Shown piece by piece: positions 3,403 to 9,995 of a DNA stretch of 64,000 nucleotides (position 1 is the first letter of the stretch; every line of letters begins with the position of its first letter). Location of the stretch: NCBI RefSeq assembly GCF_002198115.1, contig NZ_NGNR01000001.1:686369-750368 (forward strand), given 5' to 3'. Made by a program: the position numbers and the translations under genes. The notes beneath the pieces are model-generated. The model saw only the letters and a list, made by a program, of their open reading frames with translations, searched no databases and was not told the DNA's origin. The stretch is from Robiginitalea sediminis (GTDB taxonomy: Bacteria; Bacteroidota; Bacteroidia; Flavobacteriales; Flavobacteriaceae).

Positions 3403-3972
3403 ATGGAAATCCCGAATGTGATCAAGGCCCGTTTGGCGGGTGTTTTCTTTGTGTTGCTGGGGGCCGGAGTGGCCCAGGCCCAGTGCGAAGTCTTTAAGAG
3501 CGAAATCACCGATGTAAAGGACTACGAGCTGCGCGTAAGCCAGCTGGCAGATTCCCTGAAAATCCACGCCGAGGCGGCCGCCTTTGCCGCCAAGTACTCC
3601 GAAGGCCGCAAGAGCGCCAAAAAAGCCGAATTCCTGGCCGGGGAAGCCCTTAGTGCTGCCCAGGAAGCCGTTACTCTGGCTGCCGAAGCCCAGCACCGGG
3701 CCCAGCTCTGTGGCACCGATGCCGTCATCAGCCACTCGGTAAACGCCGAAAGCGCCGCCATTGACGCCCGGGACCTGGCCGACGAGATCTACACCAACGC
3801 CAAAAAAGCCTCTTCCGCCCGCAACCTGGGCGACGTCCACTACTACATGCGCCGGGCCCTCTTTGCCGCCCGCCAGGCCCACAAACGCGCCGATGCTGCA
3901 GCCTATGCGGCGTATGATGCGTATCATAGTTGTGGCCACAAAGACGGCGTTGCCGCCAGGAGAGGAGAGTAA
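3403..3972 (+). CDS. Small secreted Ala-rich helical protein
   Basis: 189 aa, not recognised. Residues 1-26 form a clear signal peptide (basic start, hydrophobic core, AQA cleavage region). The mature part is very rich in Ala, with Lys, Glu and His, almost free of Pro and Gly over long runs, and should be entirely helical, in the manner of a coiled coil or helical bundle. Cys occurs near both ends and in the middle (about residues 28, 106 and 182), so a disulfide is possible. It is probably periplasmic. The stop codon abuts repeat copy 1 with no spacer. No enzyme motif is visible. Confidence 0.7.
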   Translation: MEIPNVIKARLAGVFFVLLGAGVAQAQCEVFKSEITDVKDYELRVSQLADSLKIHAEAAAFAAKYSEGRKSAKKAEFLAGEALSAAQEAVTLAAEAQHRAQLCGTDAVISHSVNAESAAIDARDLADEIYTNAKKASSARNLGDVHYYMRRALFAARQAHKRADAAAYAAYDAYHSCGHKDGVAARRGE

Positions 3973-4488
3973 ATCACGCTTTACCAAAGCGCACAAACGT
4001 TGTTCATTTTCTTTGCTTGCCCAAAGAAAACGAACCAAAAGAAAGGGCACCTTTTCGGGAGGCAATTGGAATGCTCTCGCATTCCAACCGGAAGGTCAGG
4101 GCTAATTCGCCTCCAGGGCTTCGCCGAATCCTAACGCCCTTCCCTTCCTTTGCTGCCGAAAAGGGGTGGTGCCAGCTTCGCCGGCATGGGTTAAGATGCC
4201 CCAAGCATGGTAGAGATTACGCTGGCGCCACTGCTATGGCTACCATGCTTCGAGGTATTTTCAAACCTCGGCATAAGTTCTGGAACGTAGTAAATCGAGG
4301 AAGGCGTGCGGCCGACGAAGGAGAGCCGTTTACGGAGCAACCGTAGGTTGCGGAGTTTAAGCGGCGGGCAGCACAACTGACGTAGATTTCAAGGGGCAGA
4401 ACTGAGCCGAAAGCGATTTTTGGCCACTTTTTATCGCCGGAAAAAGTGGCAATAATAAAGCGAACCGAGGTGCAACCTCGGTGAGCTA
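3973..4488. repeat. Structured 0.5-kb repeat, copy 1
   Basis: Fills the gap between two convergent stop codons exactly. It shares long stretches with copy 3 (for example about 4258-4450) and the general plan of copy 2. Perfect stems seen: 4066-4074 with 4079-4087 (9 bp); an 11-bp arm pair AAGCATGGTAG/CTACCATGCTT near 4203-4250; 4423-4432 with 4441-4450 (10 bp); 4464-4471 with 4475-4482 (8 bp). Stem sequences differ from the stems at the same place in the other copies while pairing is kept. Short reading frames exist on both strands but are not conserved across the three copies. It is best read as a noncoding structured element, perhaps a 3'-UTR RNA of the minus-strand gene that ends at 4489. 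Confidence 0.8.
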
Positions 4489-5745
4489 TTAGACTTTAAT
4501 GATTCGGTCTACAATCTGTTTCCCAAAGTCCTCCCCGGCCATTTCCGCTGCCAGGGCTTCAGCCTGTTTTTTGTAGGCGGGGTTCTCCCATAAATCCTGG
4601 ATAAGCGGCCGCAGGCGTGCTTCGGATACTTTGGTGATGCCGGGGCCTCTCGGACCTACGCCTTTTTCAGCCAGCAATCGGTTCCACATAAACTGGTCGA
4701 TGATGTGGGGGACAATCATACTGGCACAGCCATACTTAATGCCCAGGTGGGTGGTGCCGGAGCCCCCGTGGTGGACCATGGCATATACGCGGGGCAGTAC
4801 CCAGTCGTAGGGGATGCCTTCCACAAAATAAAACTGATCGGTATTATAGTGTTCGGGCTGCACCAGCCCTCCCCCAGCGGTGTTAATAATAGTGGGGATT
4901 CCCAGGACTTCCAGAGTTTTCAGGACGATGGTGGTTTTTCCCTCCGGGTCCGGGTTTACCATGCTGCCAAAGGTAAAGAGCAGAACCCTGGAGTGGCGGG
5001 CCAGAAAGGCCTCCAACTCCGGCTCCGGGGTCCAGTTCAGGGTCTTGTTGCGCTCCTGGTAGCCCAGTACCTGTACATGACTTCCCCAGTAGGGCGGGCG
5101 GGCAAACAGCCCGGGGGAAATCGTATAAATGGCAGGCTGGGTGCGGAGTACTTCCTTAATATTTTTGCTGGTCAATTTCAGCGGGAGCGCGATGCGTTTG
5201 GTGTCGGATTGGATTGACTTCACCAACCCGAAATTCGCCAGCCCAAAGGAGGCGCGGTTCAGGCGCCTGCCCCAGTTTTTGTTAAAGGCGATGTGGCTGT
5301 GGTGGTCTGTGGGGTGGAGCATGTAAGGCACCGGGCTTACCAGGGTGACCTTCCCGGGGTTGAGCATCCCCCAGACAAAGCTGTAAACGGTCTTGGCATG
5401 GTGGACCACCCTGTCCGGCTGTTGCCGCTCCATACAGGCGGCCTGCCGCTCGGCCAGCACCTTGCGCGTGGGAGCAAAGACCTTAGCCATTTTCGCATAC
5501 GAGCGGACCTTCTGCCAGGTGGTGCCGCTTCCCCCCATCACAATCTTGCCCAGGGGGCTTTCCAATAGGTCCATAAACTCCGGGCCCAGGGATTCAAAGG
5601 TGTGGCCCCCGTCCTCGGCCAGGGGCCGGAACTGTTCCGGGAACAGACAAACGGTTTCATGCCCTGCGGCTTTCAGCATATCGGCAATGGCCAGAAAAGG
5701 TTCCATGTCGCCGCGGGTGCCGATGGAGGTGAGGAGGATTTTCAC
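4489..5745 (-). CDS. Glycosyltransferase, GT1/UGT-like (MGT, YjiC type)
   Basis: 418 aa. It starts with the MKILLTSIGTRGDMEPF pattern of UDP-glucuronosyl/sterol glucosyltransferase-like enzymes. The C-terminal half carries the nucleotide-sugar binding region, including VHHGGSGTTHLGIKYG (about 325-340) and a following VPHIIDQFMWNRLL segment, as in GT1 enzymes that glycosylate lipids, sterols or small natural products. No signal peptide or membrane helix, so it should be cytosolic or peripheral. The start codon appears to be GTG (5743-5745). The acceptor cannot be told from the sequence. The gene's 3' end abuts repeat copy 1. Confidence 0.85.
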   Translation of the reverse strand: MKILLTSIGTRGDMEPFLAIADMLKAAGHETVCLFPEQFRPLAEDGGHTFESLGPEFMDLLESPLGKIVMGGSGTTWQKVRSYAKMAKVFAPTRKVLAERQAACMERQQPDRVVHHAKTVYSFVWGMLNPGKVTLVSPVPYMLHPTDHHSHIAFNKNWGRRLNRASFGLANFGLVKSIQSDTKRIALPLKLTSKNIKEVLRTQPAIYTISPGLFARPPYWGSHVQVLGYQERNKTLNWTPEPELEAFLARHSRVLLFTFGSMVNPDPEGKTTIVLKTLEVLGIPTIINTAGGGLVQPEHYNTDQFYFVEGIPYDWVLPRVYAMVHHGGSGTTHLGIKYGCASMIVPHIIDQFMWNRLLAEKGVGPRGPGITKVSEARLRPLIQDLWENPAYKKQAEALAAEMAGEDFGKQIVDRIIKV

Positions 5746-5849
5746 AGGTTTAAGGTAGTTAATTCTGAGAACTGTGGCGCACTATGGGTTCCTCCGGGAT
5801 ACGCAAAAGTTTTACTTCTCTTTCCATTCTTTCTCACCCATGGAACCCC

Positions 5850-5857
5850 TACCTTTG
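5850..5857 (+). promoter_or_regulatory. Bacteroidota -7 element (TACCTTTG) for the MATE gene
   Basis: An exact TAnnTTTG lies 32 bases before the ATG. A small hairpin (GCGGC/GCCGC with a 4-base loop, about 5871-5884) sits in the leader directly before the start and could mask ribosome access. A -33 TTG at good spacing is not obvious. Confidence 0.5.
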
Positions 5858-5889
5858 AGGGACGTAATAAGCGGCGTTAGCCGCCATCC

Positions 5890-7266
5890 ATGGCAAAAGT
5901 AACCTCAGACCAACTCGGAACGGAGCCCATCGGGCCACTGCTGGTGCGGCAGGCGGTGCCCGCGGCCATCGGCATTTTGGTGATGAGCCTGAATATCCTG
6001 GTAGACACCATTTTTGTGGGGAACTGGATCGGGTCCATCGCCATTGCAGCCATCAACGTGGTGCTGCCGGTTTCGTTTTTTATTGCGGCACTGGGGATGG
6101 CCATCGGGATTGGTGGAAGTAGCGTGATCTCCAGGGCCCTGGGGGCCAACCAAGATGAAAAGGCGCTTAAAACCTTCGGGAACCAGATAAGCCTGACCAT
6201 CCTCATTACCGTATCCATGGTGGTGCTGGGGCTGTGGTTTGTGGATGGGCTTATCCCGGCCTTCGGGGGCAAAGGGGGGATCTTTGCCCCGGCTAAGGTG
6301 TACTATACCATTGTGCTGTACGGGGTGCCCTTTCTGGCGCTCTGCATGATGGGCAACACGGTTATCCGGGCAGAAGGCAAGCCCAAGTTTGCCATGATCG
6401 CCATGATCATCCCTTCGGTAGGGAACCTGGTGCTGGACTACCTGTTTATCTACGTCTTCGACTGGGGGATGCACGGGGCCGCCTGGGCCACCACCGGGAG
6501 CTATCTGGTGTGTTTTCTCTACATCCTCTGGTTCTTCTTTTCCAAAAATTCCGAGCTGAAAATCGGGTGGCACCACCTGGCCCTGCACGGTGGTATTTTG
6601 AAAGAAATCGGGGGGCTGGGCTTTGTGACCCTGGCGCGGCAGGCCGTTACCTCCGTTACCTATCTCATCCTTAACAACATCTTATTCGAATTGGGCGGGG
6701 AGCCCATGGTGGCGGTTTATGCCATCATAGGTCGCATGCTCATGTTCGCCCTCTTCCCCGTCTTCGGGGTTACTCAGGGGTTCCTGCCTATAGCGGGCTT
6801 CAACTACGGCGCCCATAAGTATGCTCGTGTTAAGGAGTCCATATACACCGCGATCAAATACGCCGCCCTGGTGGCCACCCTGGTCTTTGTGGTGCTCATG
6901 GCCTTTCCGGCGGAGATTGCAGGCCTCTTCCTGAGCGACCGGCCAGACATGTCGCCGGAGGAAGCCGCCAACAATGCCTTTGTCCTGGCCCATACCCCAT
7001 CGGCCATGCGGTGGGTCTTTGCCGCCACCCCCATCATTGCCATCCAGCTCATAGGCGCCGCCTATTTCCAGGCCATCGGCAAGGCCATCCCGGCCCTGCT
7101 GCTCACCCTCACCCGCCAGGGTTTTTTCTTTATCCCCCTCATCCTGGCCCTGCCGTACTTCTTTGGCGAAATCGGGGTGTGGACCAGTTTTGCGATTGCA
7201 GATGTGCTCGCTACTGTGGTTACGGGGTATTTTTTGAAGAAGGAGATAGACAGAACTTTAACGTAG
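5890..7266 (+). CDS. MATE family multidrug/metabolite exporter
   Basis: 458 aa with about twelve hydrophobic segments in two similar halves, the MATE layout. The N-terminal region LGTEPIGPLLVRQAVPAAIGILVMSLNILVDTIFVG is typical of MATE proteins, with the early Asp of the first helices present. It should use a Na+ or H+ gradient to expel organic cations or other metabolites across the inner membrane. It is a single gene with its own -7 element and is convergent with the gamma-glutamyltransferase gene across repeat copy 2. The substrate is unknown. Confidence 0.9.
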   Translation: MAKVTSDQLGTEPIGPLLVRQAVPAAIGILVMSLNILVDTIFVGNWIGSIAIAAINVVLPVSFFIAALGMAIGIGGSSVISRALGANQDEKALKTFGNQISLTILITVSMVVLGLWFVDGLIPAFGGKGGIFAPAKVYYTIVLYGVPFLALCMMGNTVIRAEGKPKFAMIAMIIPSVGNLVLDYLFIYVFDWGMHGAAWATTGSYLVCFLYILWFFFSKNSELKIGWHHLALHGGILKEIGGLGFVTLARQAVTSVTYLILNNILFELGGEPMVAVYAIIGRMLMFALFPVFGVTQGFLPIAGFNYGAHKYARVKESIYTAIKYAALVATLVFVVLMAFPAEIAGLFLSDRPDMSPEEAANNAFVLAHTPSAMRWVFAATPIIAIQLIGAAYFQAIGKAIPALLLTLTRQGFFFIPLILALPYFFGEIGVWTSFAIADVLATVVTGYFLKKEIDRTLT

Positions 7267-7289
7267 TTTTTATCTTGAAAGAGAGAGTA

Positions 7290-7727
7290 GGGCTCGTCGG
7301 CATTGCATGCCGCCTCGCTTTTCTTCATTTCTTTTGCTCGCCCAAAAGAAACGAAGCAAAGAAAACGGCGCCCTCGCTTAGGCGTTTTTGCAGCCTTTGC
7401 TGCAAAACCAGGCTTTGGAAGCTAAAAGCAGTCCAAGGTTTCCTGCTTTCTTAACGCTTCCAAAGCCTTACGCTGCACCTCGGGGGGTTGCCGGCTGCGC
7501 CGGCATTGGGGAAGGTTCTAGAAGCATGGTAGCGATAGCGGTGGTGTAAGCGGAATCGCGATTTGCGAAGCAAATGGAAAGCGTGGAGCGACCAGCGCCA
7601 GCCGCGGTTTTGCGGCCGCAAAAATCGCATCGAATGCTTCGAAAAAAGGTCTTTTTCTTTCTCCCTTTCTTTTGGACCAGCAAAAGAAAGGGAATAAAAA
7701 GTGAGCCGTGACGTGTCACGGCGAACT
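7290..7727. repeat. Structured 0.5-kb repeat, copy 2 (divergent half)
   Basis: Lies between two convergent stop codons. Positions 7290-7550 match copy 3 closely; from about 7551 to the end the sequence is different from copies 1 and 3 but equally full of hairpins. Perfect stems: 7386-7394 with 7399-7407 (9 bp), 7411-7422 with 7456-7467 (12 bp), 7561-7566 with 7570-7575, a 16-base palindrome at 7608-7623, 7663-7674 with 7681-7692 (12 bp), and 7705-7712 with 7715-7722 (8 bp). The last two sit where the other copies have the same two hairpins with other sequences. No convincing coding frame. Confidence 0.78.
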
Positions 7728-7743
7728 AAACCTCCGGAGGAAC

Positions 7744-9435
7744 CTAATAGCCCGCCGCTTGCCCATCCTTCCGGCTCTCGGAAGCCCCACGGTAGACCTT
7801 GTTTTTGGCATCCCACATTATGGCCTGGTACCCGCCGTAGGATCCACGGGTGAATTGGACGGTGTGGCGGCGGTCCATCAAACCGCGGACGGTTTCATAG
7901 GGGATGCCGGATTCGACCCGGACGATGCCCCGGCCCCCGCGCTCGCCGGTGGGGCTGGAGCCGCCGGTGTGGTCCCAACGGGGGGCGTCCCCGGCTTCCT
8001 GCAGGTTCATGCCGAAGTCGATGAGGTTCATAACGATCTGGCTGTGGCCCTGGGGCTGAAAGTCCCCGCCCATGACCCCGAAGCTCACCCAGGGTGTCCC
8101 GTCCTTGGTGATAAAGGCCGGGATGATGGTGTGGAAGGGACGCTTGCCGGGTTCATACGTATTGGCCTGGCCTTCGGTAAGGCTGAAGAGTTCCCCCCGG
8201 TCCTGCAGCATAAAGCCGAGCCCGGGAGGCGCCATGCCGGAGCCCATCCCCCGGTAATTGCTCTGGATCAGGGAGACCATATTCCCATACTGGTCGGCAG
8301 TCGTCATGTAGATGGTTTCCCCGGCGGAGATTTCCCCGGCCTGGTACTCCCCGGCCCACTCCCGGATCTGCTGGCGGCGGTTGTCCGCATAAGTGTCCGA
8401 AAGGAGGGTTTCCATGGGGACCTTGGCGAAATCCATATCTGCATAGTATTTGGCCCGGTCCTCAAAGGCGAGTTTCTTGGCCTCGGTAAACAAATGGAGG
8501 TGCTCCGCACTGCCAAATTCGATGTTGGAAAAGTCGTACCCTTCCAGGATTTGCAGCATCTGCAGGGCGGCGATCCCCTGCCCGTTGGGGGGGAGTTCCC
8601 AGACGTCGTACCCCCGGTAATTCACGGAAACCGGCGTCACCCATTCGGCCGTATGGCTGGCCAGGTCCTCCTGGGAGAGGAAGCCCCCCTGGGCCTGGAT
8701 AAAGTCGGCGATGGTCTTGGCGATTTTCCCCTTATAGAAGGCATCCCGCCCCCCTTTGGCGATGGCCCGGTAGGTGTTCGCCAGGAAGGGGTTTTTATAG
8801 ATTTCCCCCTCGTTGGGCAGCTTCCCGCCGTTTTGGTCGATATAGGTCTCTTTGATATTCGGGAAGCCCTGTCGCATGAAGAAGGGCACCGTATTTTGCA
8901 TATACCAGGCAATGAGCTGGGTCAGGGGAAAGCCATTCTCGGCATAGTCGATGGCCGGGGCCAATAGTTCCGCCATGGGCATCGTCCCGAATTTACCGTG
9001 CAGCTCGAACCAGCCGCTCACCGCCCCGGGTACGCTCACAGGCAGGGGCCCGTGAGAGGGGATTTCCGTCATTCCCTCTTTCTTAAAGTAGTCCAGCGTC
9101 AGGCTTTTGGGCGAACGCCCACTGGCATTGAGCCCATAGAGCTGCTGGGTCTTGGCATCCCAGACGATGGCAAACAAGTCGCCCCCAATGCCGCACCCGG
9201 TAGGCTCCATAAGGCCCAGGGCCGCGTTGGCGGCAATGGCAGCATCGATAGCCGACCCGCCCTTTTTCAGGATATCCAGCCCAACCTGCGTAGCGAGGGG
9301 GTGGCTGGTGGCCACCATCCCGTGCTGGGCAATTACTTCGGACCGCGTGGCATTAAGGGCCCCGGTGATCCGGTCCTGGGCTTGGAGTTGAAAGCTTGCG
9401 AAAAGGGAAACGAGAAGAAGGCAAATGCGATTCAT
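7744..9435 (-). CDS. ggt: Gamma-glutamyltransferase family protein
   Basis: 563 aa, the usual GGT length, with an N-terminal signal peptide (about 1-19, ending in QAQ) for export to the periplasm. The family core is present: the early GMVATSHPLA region, GGSAIDAAIAANAALG, GCGIGGDLFAIV, and the ETIYMTTADQYGNMVS segment whose first Thr (about residue 374) is the expected autoprocessing site and nucleophile. The subunit boundary would fall there. It resembles the YwrD-like subgroup rather than E. coli Ggt, so activity on glutathione is likely but not certain. A near-consensus -7 (TATCTTTA on the minus strand, 9460-9467) lies 25 bases upstream. Confidence 0.88.
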   Translation of the reverse strand: MNRICLLLVSLFASFQLQAQDRITGALNATRSEVIAQHGMVATSHPLATQVGLDILKKGGSAIDAAIAANAALGLMEPTGCGIGGDLFAIVWDAKTQQLYGLNASGRSPKSLTLDYFKKEGMTEIPSHGPLPVSVPGAVSGWFELHGKFGTMPMAELLAPAIDYAENGFPLTQLIAWYMQNTVPFFMRQGFPNIKETYIDQNGGKLPNEGEIYKNPFLANTYRAIAKGGRDAFYKGKIAKTIADFIQAQGGFLSQEDLASHTAEWVTPVSVNYRGYDVWELPPNGQGIAALQMLQILEGYDFSNIEFGSAEHLHLFTEAKKLAFEDRAKYYADMDFAKVPMETLLSDTYADNRRQQIREWAGEYQAGEISAGETIYMTTADQYGNMVSLIQSNYRGMGSGMAPPGLGFMLQDRGELFSLTEGQANTYEPGKRPFHTIIPAFITKDGTPWVSFGVMGGDFQPQGHSQIVMNLIDFGMNLQEAGDAPRWDHTGGSSPTGERGGRGIVRVESGIPYETVRGLMDRRHTVQFTRGSYGGYQAIMWDAKNKVYRGASESRKDGQAAGY

Positions 9436-9505
9436 GAGGGAGGGTTTTGAAGAGGGGATTAAAGATAAAGAATTGGGAGGCGTTCAGCCAAAAAAGGAAA
9501 GTGAT

Positions 9506-9995
9506 AGCTCGCCGGCATTGCATGCCGCCTCGCTTTTCTTCATTTCTTTTGTTCGCCCAAAAGAAACGAAGCAAAGAAAACGGCGCCCTCGCTTAGGCGT
9601 TTTTGCAGCTCACACTGCAAAACCAGGCTTTGGAAGCTAAAAGCGGTCCAAGGCTTCCCACTTTCTTTACGCTTCCAAAACCTTACGCTGAATCTCGGGG
9701 GTATGCCGGCTTTGCCGGCATTGGGTATATTTTTCGAAGCATGGCAGCGATAGCGGTGGCGTAAGCAAAACCTCGGCATAAGTTCTGAACCGTAGTAAAT
9801 CGAGGAAGGCGTGCGGCCGACGAAGGAGAGCCGCTTACGGAGCAGCCGGAGGATGCGGAGTCTAAGCGGCGGGCGGCGCAACTGACGTAGATTTCAAGGG
9901 GCAGAACTGAGCCGAAAGCGATTTTTGGCCACTTTTTATCGCCAGAAAAAGTGGCAATAGAAAAGCGAGCCGGCGCGCCACGCCGGCGAGCAACT
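9506..9995. repeat. Structured 0.5-kb repeat, copy 3
   Basis: Lies between the hemH stop and the ggt start, so unlike copies 1 and 2 it is not flanked by convergent genes. Its first half matches copy 2 and its second half matches copy 1, making it the link that shows the three are one family. Stems: 9601-9608 with 9615-9622 (8 bp), 9626-9637 with 9671-9682 (12 bp with one C/A mismatch), GCCGCTTA paired with TAAGCGGC near 9830-9870, 9928-9937 with 9946-9955 (10 bp), and 9969-9975 with 9981-9987 (7 bp). The outermost bases form an imperfect terminal inverted repeat: GCTCGCCGGC at the left, its complement at the right. Confidence 0.8.

Follow-up and report, generated by a model that had tools for sequence, protein, structure and literature searches.

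Dispersed repeats of bacteria are usually confined to a genus or a family and form plain hairpins. ISL3 elements have ends that begin with GGCTCT and make 8-bp duplications; HUH enzymes are not known to make 8-bp target duplications. On the RNA side, H pseudoknots of the telomerase and SAM-II type contain a U.A-U triple helix, and triple-helix stability elements (ENE) are known from eukaryotic and viral RNAs. The intergenic dyad sequences of Haemophilus influenzae were reportedly the subject of Read and Farley 1997 and Read et al. 2000. They are described as conserved extragenic dyads, said to be tied to gene-locus mobility (PMC4144887). REP sequences are palindromes of 20-40 bp that carry a tag, GTAG or CGTC (tags as given in PMC3733652).

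The repeats described here resemble REP, BIME and REPIN sequences with their RAYT in being intergenic palindromes with inverted pairing, GC-rich terminal hairpins and mosaic copies. They differ in that the unit is 150-260 nt long and contains a pseudoknot, in that five copies are present instead of hundreds, and in that the genome of the window and two others (G004 and G007) have no Y1 transposase. Neither a GTAG nor a CGTC tag was read in the terminal hairpins of copies 1 and 3. The conserved pseudoknot is the unusual part of what is a MITE-borne or REP-like repeat.

Repeat copies in the window

Pairwise alignment of the window, a 64-kb stretch of the Robiginitalea sediminis genome, confirmed three repeat copies of about 0.5 kb within about 6 kb, as a sequence-only reading had claimed. 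The copies occupy the intergenic gaps, with ORF borders at 3972/4489, 7266/7744 and 9435/10036, and, as that reading also had it, copy 3 joins the first half of copy 2 to the second half of copy 1. Identity is 88% across the 269 nt of the left parts of copies 2 and 3 (positions 7292-7560 and 9507-9775) and 91% across the 224 nt of the right parts of copies 1 and 3 (4263-4486 and 9768-9991); a central 63-nt piece is common to all three copies (70-75%). The description as a dispersed, non-IS, mostly intergenic repeat family with mosaic copies is supported. Inspection of the sequence revealed no target duplication at any of the three copies, which are laid out as follows.

3973-4488: copy 1, inverted dimer of left half A1 and right half B1, without a left terminal hairpin
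4460-4486: copy 1, right terminal GC-rich hairpin (predicted fold)
7290-7727: copy 2, inverted dimer of left half A2 and right half B2
7292-7318: copy 2, left terminal GC-rich hairpin (predicted fold and alignment)
7701-7726: copy 2, right terminal GC-rich hairpin (predicted fold)
9506-9995: copy 3, inverted dimer of left half A2 (compare copy 2) and right half B1 (compare copy 1)
9507-9533: copy 3, left terminal GC-rich hairpin (complementary to the right end of copy 3)
9965-9991: copy 3, right terminal GC-rich hairpin (inverted-repeat alignment)

The terminal arms of copy 3 (9507-9539 and 9959-9991) are 33 nt long and 85% complementary.

The expectation of many copies in the genome did not hold: a search of all 3.30 Mb (15 contigs) with each of the three copies yielded five full copies. 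The two additional ones lie at C1:665238-665765 and at about 781.6-782.0 kb of C1, so that all five fall inside 117 kb of this contig; a half copy was found at a contig end (C10:128-304), along with weak short matches on contigs C11 and C9. Left and right halves are combined as A1B1 (copy 1), A2B2 (copy 2), A2B1 (copy 3) and A1B2 (copies 4 and 5), copy 4 having an inverted B1 piece in its middle besides. Since all four half-combinations occur, the copies have recombined.

With copy 3 as the query, 13 of 149 genomes matched, the window's own included; within the genus Robiginitalea it was 4 of 10 (G000, which is the window's genome, G004, G007 and G008). In the window's genome the MATE gene is turned relative to GGT and copy 2 sits between their 3' ends, and in G004 and G007 a copy is likewise located between the two genes. 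In G001, G005, G006, G008 and G009, the remaining genomes of this comparison (which covers the genus except G002 and G003, with short stretches for G001 and G008), MATE and GGT have the same orientation and there is no repeat match. This suggests that copies may be placed at rearrangement joints. The genomes of the genus also differ in the order of GT, MATE, GGT and hemH (window 4489-9435; loci L057 and L062), and copies were noted at the changed junctions.

The Rfam search that the sequence-only reading had called for gave no family match, with nothing at the gathering score of Rfam 15 in the window or in seven loci. With an E-value threshold instead, all matches were sub-threshold: BTnc231 at the left end of copy 2 (20.6 of 80.4 bits), and Phe_leader, mir-3613 and Atu_L1. 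A search of the open-licence PMC literature found no paper describing the unit.

Architecture of the unit

In each copy of the window, two units of about 160-190 nt are joined as an inverted dimer. The unit begins with a hairpin (S1) and continues with a purine-rich linker, with a strand that pairs with the S1 loop and so makes a pseudoknot, and with a branched domain that an outer stem closes; across the family, unit length is about 150-260 nt. A descriptor (stem of at least 9, loop of 6-8, 4/4 loop pairing, A-rich linker) found six sites in the window, two per copy and pointing outward, at 4007-4030 (+), 4423-4450 (-), 7328-7351 (+), 7662-7693 (-), 9543-9566 (+) and 9928-9955 (-), the last of which fits the descriptor on the + strand too. 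Because the six sites point outward and the right halves are reversed units, the copies are inverted dimers with pseudoknots at their outer ends. The units are listed below; "+" for unit A1 of copy 1 denotes the direction that we call unit +, whose opposite is the strand proposed to fold.

4003-4164, + strand: unit A1 of copy 1; S1 core 4007-4030; loop TGCC pairs with GGCA at 4046-4049; outer stem CCTTTTCGG/CCGAAAAGG; alignment row L010:572-733
4269-4455 (approximate, ends by eye), - strand: unit B1 of copy 1; S1 4423-4450; loop GCGA pairs with TCGC
7324-7490 (approximate, ends by eye), + strand: unit A2 of copy 2; S1 core 7328-7351; loop CGCC pairs with GGCG at 7367-7370
7516-7693 (approximate, ends by eye), - strand: unit B2 of copy 2; S1 7662-7693; loop GGTC pairs with GACC
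9539-9703 (approximate, ends by eye), + strand: unit A2 of copy 3; S1 core 9543-9566; loop CGCC pairs with GGCG at 9582-9585
9771-9955 (approximate, ends by eye), - strand: unit B1 of copy 3; S1 9928-9955; loop GCGA pairs with TCGC

The outer stem of A2 in copy 2 is paired only in part, and A2 units generally pair this stem poorly. Outside Robiginitalea dimers are rare, with one inverted pair (L127) among 164 units examined with a similar descriptor.

Several further arrangements were noted around units. L080, L088 and L114 resemble diverged dimers by eye, and one Flavobacteriaceae genome has seven S1-type hairpins in 2.7 kb, some of them about 250 bp apart (G072:C38:299998-302690). On its outer side, S1 is interrupted or replaced by a second short repeat (..TTCATGAACCTCC..GTCGG) in Galbibacter, Arenibacter and Robiginitalea relatives (L252, L269, L272, L273, L280-L282, and L031 and L043 of G004). 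A small GC palindrome occupies one fixed place of the linker in the Galbibacter copies L267, L271, L272, L273 and L274, and a different palindrome is inserted in the linker of L072. A common repeat of the type GTCATTGCGAGG..CGAAGCAATC adjoins units in L087, from a Flavobacteriaceae genome, and is also present in the flanks of other loci.

Covariation of the pseudoknot and stems

Covariation is seen in the hairpin and the pseudoknot, in the outer stem and in two inner stems. In the pattern used to collect the 119 loci listed, only one loop pyrimidine and its partner purine were left free, the remaining loop pairs being fixed; at this pair there were 79 T-A and 40 C-G combinations and no mismatch. 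All four loop pairs were Watson-Crick in 144 of 170 units, three in 19 and two in 7, compared with on average 52, and at most 69, units with 4/4 pairing in 2000 shuffles of the loops, in a set gathered largely by patterns that fix part of the loop. Seven of these 170 units were lost near locus ends before the fold analysis.

An alignment of 36 Flavobacteriaceae units, two of them from the window's genome, was filtered by stem score, length and 93% identity. Scored against a structure read from one aligned member, 93.3% of cells were paired, versus 81.5% after shuffling and 38-63% in slid controls. Both sides had changed in 28 of 46 pairs, and there were 183 double-change cells versus 48 after shuffling. 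With regard to the missing reading frame that the sequence-only reading had noted, the aligned units differ by indels and covary as stems.

Distribution across bacteria

The unit is widespread but patchy. An AT-rich hairpin pattern matched 29 of 397 Flavobacteriaceae genomes, and the reversed pattern none of the 397. The linker follows the hairpin in 26 of the 30 loci listed (interrupted in L072); the four without it are L069, L083, L094 and L098. A stricter pattern matched at least 119 loci. Among those listed, Bacteroidota are represented by Galbibacter, Arenibacter, Robiginitalea, Cerina, Saprospiraceae and Bacteroidales, and the others comprise many Gamma- and Betaproteobacteria, Pasteurellaceae, Desulfobacterales and further Deltaproteobacteria, and one Selenomonadaceae MAG. 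Six of 369 gammaproteobacterial genomes matched, with the centre genome counted, against none for the control. Single units are the form seen in Bacteroidota, in Gamma-, Beta- and Deltaproteobacteria, in the Selenomonadaceae MAG and in Ilyobacter, and Ilyobacter polytropus (Fusobacteriota) has one unit, with a paired outer stem, on a megaplasmid. Many carriers are MAGs, and single odd placements are therefore weak.

Within the Pasteurellaceae, Rodentibacter and Aggregatibacter carry units, and the gene before the units is one that we take from its C-terminus to be purH. These units may be the intergenic dyad sequences of H. influenzae. A genome titled Pseudomonas stutzeri NCTC11607 (L117) has a unit together with AAGTGCGGT uptake-like sequences, which are typical of Pasteurellaceae, and its label looks doubtful.

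Copy 3 gave no match to plasmid records. A betaproteobacterial unit matched 1 of 72,556 plasmid records, namely the I. polytropus megaplasmid, and none of 50,697 phage records, and the strict pattern had no match on viral contigs; these queries are narrow, which makes the negatives weak.

Carriage by a MITE and candidate transposases

Within Galbibacter, a MITE with terminal inverted repeats and 8-bp target duplications serves as the carrier of the unit. Of the 27 matches in Galbibacter mesophilus, 26 are near full length and 80-97% identical to the query copy, and the core ends are sharp; in partial matches either end can be missing. Both terminal repeats (at least 14 of 25 positions) were recognized in 16 of 35 copies examined, 14 from Galbibacter and two from relatives. 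The 8-bp flanks of these 16 agreed exactly in three and at seven of eight positions in one, versus none and one in 240 mismatched pairings, with a mean agreement of 5.0 of 8 positions versus 2.8. Terminal inverted repeats together with target duplications indicate that the copies spread by transposition, with a transposase presumably supplied in trans.

With its length of 261-294 bp between the terminal repeats, these repeats, the 8-bp duplications and no room for a transposase, the Galbibacter element is like a MITE. Unlike in a MITE, the conserved pseudoknotted core, but not the set of terminal repeats, is common across phyla; target duplication is missing at the window copies, and copy 1 has no left terminal repeat. 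The sequence-only reading had named a match to a MITE family as a finding that would speak against its proposal; this applies in part, since the unit does reside inside a MITE in Galbibacter, though no named MITE was found.

In a search for an autonomous partner with these ends, the left repeat was present at 14 sites in three genomes, with S1 inside nine and two others adjoining partial units; L324, L330 and L334 have neither, the second terminal repeat having been looked for within 700 bp. At least L324 is a short element of like kind that lacks the unit. Given this element, and other copies of the unit with other flanks, the unit is best seen as cargo that changed carriers.

Two transposase families were considered as mobilizers. 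ISL3 was rejected for G463, which has no ISL3 transposase, and for G464, whose single one is not bounded by the terminal repeat; three loci in G466 are not bounded by it either. A general role for RAYT (Y1) was set aside on account of six carriers, as the Y1 transposase family is present in 12 of 18 carrier genomes and was not found in G000 (the window's genome), G004, G007, G467, G473 and G479. An association with a neighbouring gene family was likewise rejected, the largest cluster among 593 ORFs within 4 kb covering 4 of 54 genome groups, and neither a transposase nor a reverse transcriptase was among the ten neighbour clusters listed.

Folding strand and the linker mirror

The folding strand is likely the one with the U-rich linker. 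At internal non-Watson-Crick pairs of S1, the unit + strand has A.C in 98 and G.T in one of 158 units, and A.C on this strand is G.U on the opposite one; the count comes mainly from two stem positions and therefore reflects few independent events. The other helices gave near-equal G.T:A.C cell counts of 19:30 and 26:28 (p = 0.24 together), which is neutral or adverse for this strand; the second count covers loci of at least the required length. A crude control of 14 tRNAs gave 13:4. Raw folding energy favoured the proposed strand, an argument that was withdrawn because the advantage disappeared against shuffled controls. In the 79 units used, the shuffle z was lower on the proposed strand for 22 of 35 Flavobacteriaceae units and for 14 of 44 others, the latter result being significant in the wrong direction. 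The orientation to neighbouring genes was ++ in 23, -- in 30, +- in 24 and -+ in 12 of the 119 loci listed, with 30 unscorable; a fixed orientation in 3' UTRs was unsupported, as these crude ORF calls show no clear preference.

The pattern left two purine positions free in S1 and two in the linker. Among the 119 loci listed, the S1/linker purines were GA/AG in 79, AG/GA in 36, AA/AA in three and AA/AG in one, and the combinations GA-GA and AG-AG never occurred; the linker mirrors the purine strand of S1, including the G, in 115 loci, with three loci lacking G in either and one exception. Read on the opposite strand, the linker becomes U-rich and runs parallel to the purine strand of S1, with C facing G. 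A U.A-U/C+.G-C triple helix on that strand would require precisely this mirror, from which we infer that the linker can form such a helix in the major groove of S1 on the U-rich strand. The mirror could alternatively reflect the inheritance of two old variants; both occur in Bacteroidota and in Proteobacteria. An earlier reading, in which the linker forms a purine-motif triplex on the unit + strand, may still apply but gave way to the opposite-strand reading in view of the pseudoknot geometry and the A.C positions.

The U-rich first loop of telomerase-type and SAM-II-type H pseudoknots likewise runs parallel to the stem's purine strand, and in the unit the G and C positions are coupled. The likeness is one of fold, apart from any shown relation of sequence or family.

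Explanations for the repeats

The explanation that we favour, tentatively and at somewhat less than an even chance, is that the repeats are a dispersed mobile structured element whose pseudoknot unit caps the 3' ends of transcripts, with mosaics made by recombination. We read it as a transposon-borne structured element that probably acts as RNA where transcripts end, function and strand both being inferred. The pseudoknot would form the 3' end of the unit on the proposed strand, and transcripts running into it would have their 3' ends capped and protected; protection or definition of these ends is in our view the most likely job. The inverted dimer would offer such a cap to transcripts from both sides, which suits gaps between gene ends, where copies 1 and 2 sit, and the mosaic copies would arise by recombination between copies. 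The six outward sites of the window, the covariation, the linker mirror, the A.C pairs of S1 and the Galbibacter MITE speak for this explanation. The neutral or adverse strand results, the lack of a clear orientation to genes, the missing target duplications at the window copies, the rarity of dimers elsewhere and the poorly paired outer stem of A2 units speak against it.

A rather unlikely alternative is that the element works at the DNA level, folding as single-stranded or extruded DNA and being recognized by the enzyme that moves it or by one active on both strands. In that case the linker mirror would represent a triplex of the H-DNA type, and the folded ends would be comparable to those used by HUH transposases. 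Near-equal G.T and A.C cells outside S1, folding z-scores that are alike on both strands, REP-like hairpins at the dimer ends and the Y1 family in 12 of 18 carrier genomes all fit a DNA element, but S1 has A.C over G.T by 98 units to 1, six carriers, including the window's genome, lack Y1 transposase, and the Galbibacter carrier is a MITE with 8-bp duplications, which HUH enzymes are not known to make. The latter carrier also bears on a reading that we consider very unlikely, in which the unit is copied via RNA and the 3' pseudoknot is the recognition site of a reverse transcriptase. The one-sided position of the pseudoknot on the proposed strand would agree with this, as would L083 and L094, which retain only the S1 end; terminal inverted repeats and target duplications in Galbibacter do not, nor do partial matches that lose either end, and reverse transcriptase is not among the recurrent neighbours listed.

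The unit may instead be passive cargo, old palindromic debris in MITEs and other repeats whose stems were kept perfect by template switching at inverted repeats and which has no function, an explanation we regard as unlikely. Low and patchy copy number, both orientations of insertion and the lack of a common neighbour gene (at most 4 of 54 genome groups) are what such debris would show. Hairpin repair, however, cannot account for the pairing of the loop with a downstream strand or for the linker mirror, and it leaves unexplained why S1 is near-identical between phyla. Mere chance, or a local duplication of genes within a single genome, has a practically negligible probability: although all five full copies lie within 117 kb, the same unit in relatives and in distant phyla excludes it.

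Returning to the favoured 3'-end cap, its most specific form, a single RNA unit with a telomerase-like triple-helix pseudoknot that has spread across phyla as transposon cargo and serves as a portable two-way cap, is in our estimate doubtful. If true, the unit would be a bacterial counterpart of the triple-helix stability elements of eukaryotic and viral RNAs. A pseudoknot, apparently with a triple helix, that is kept across Bacteroidota, Proteobacteria and Fusobacteriota would imply a widespread recognizer, and opens as targets the mover of the unit, the reader of its fold and the protection of transcript ends. Odd "hypothetical protein" ORFs called across units would also be explained, and in genomes like that of the window the units mark likely recombination joints.
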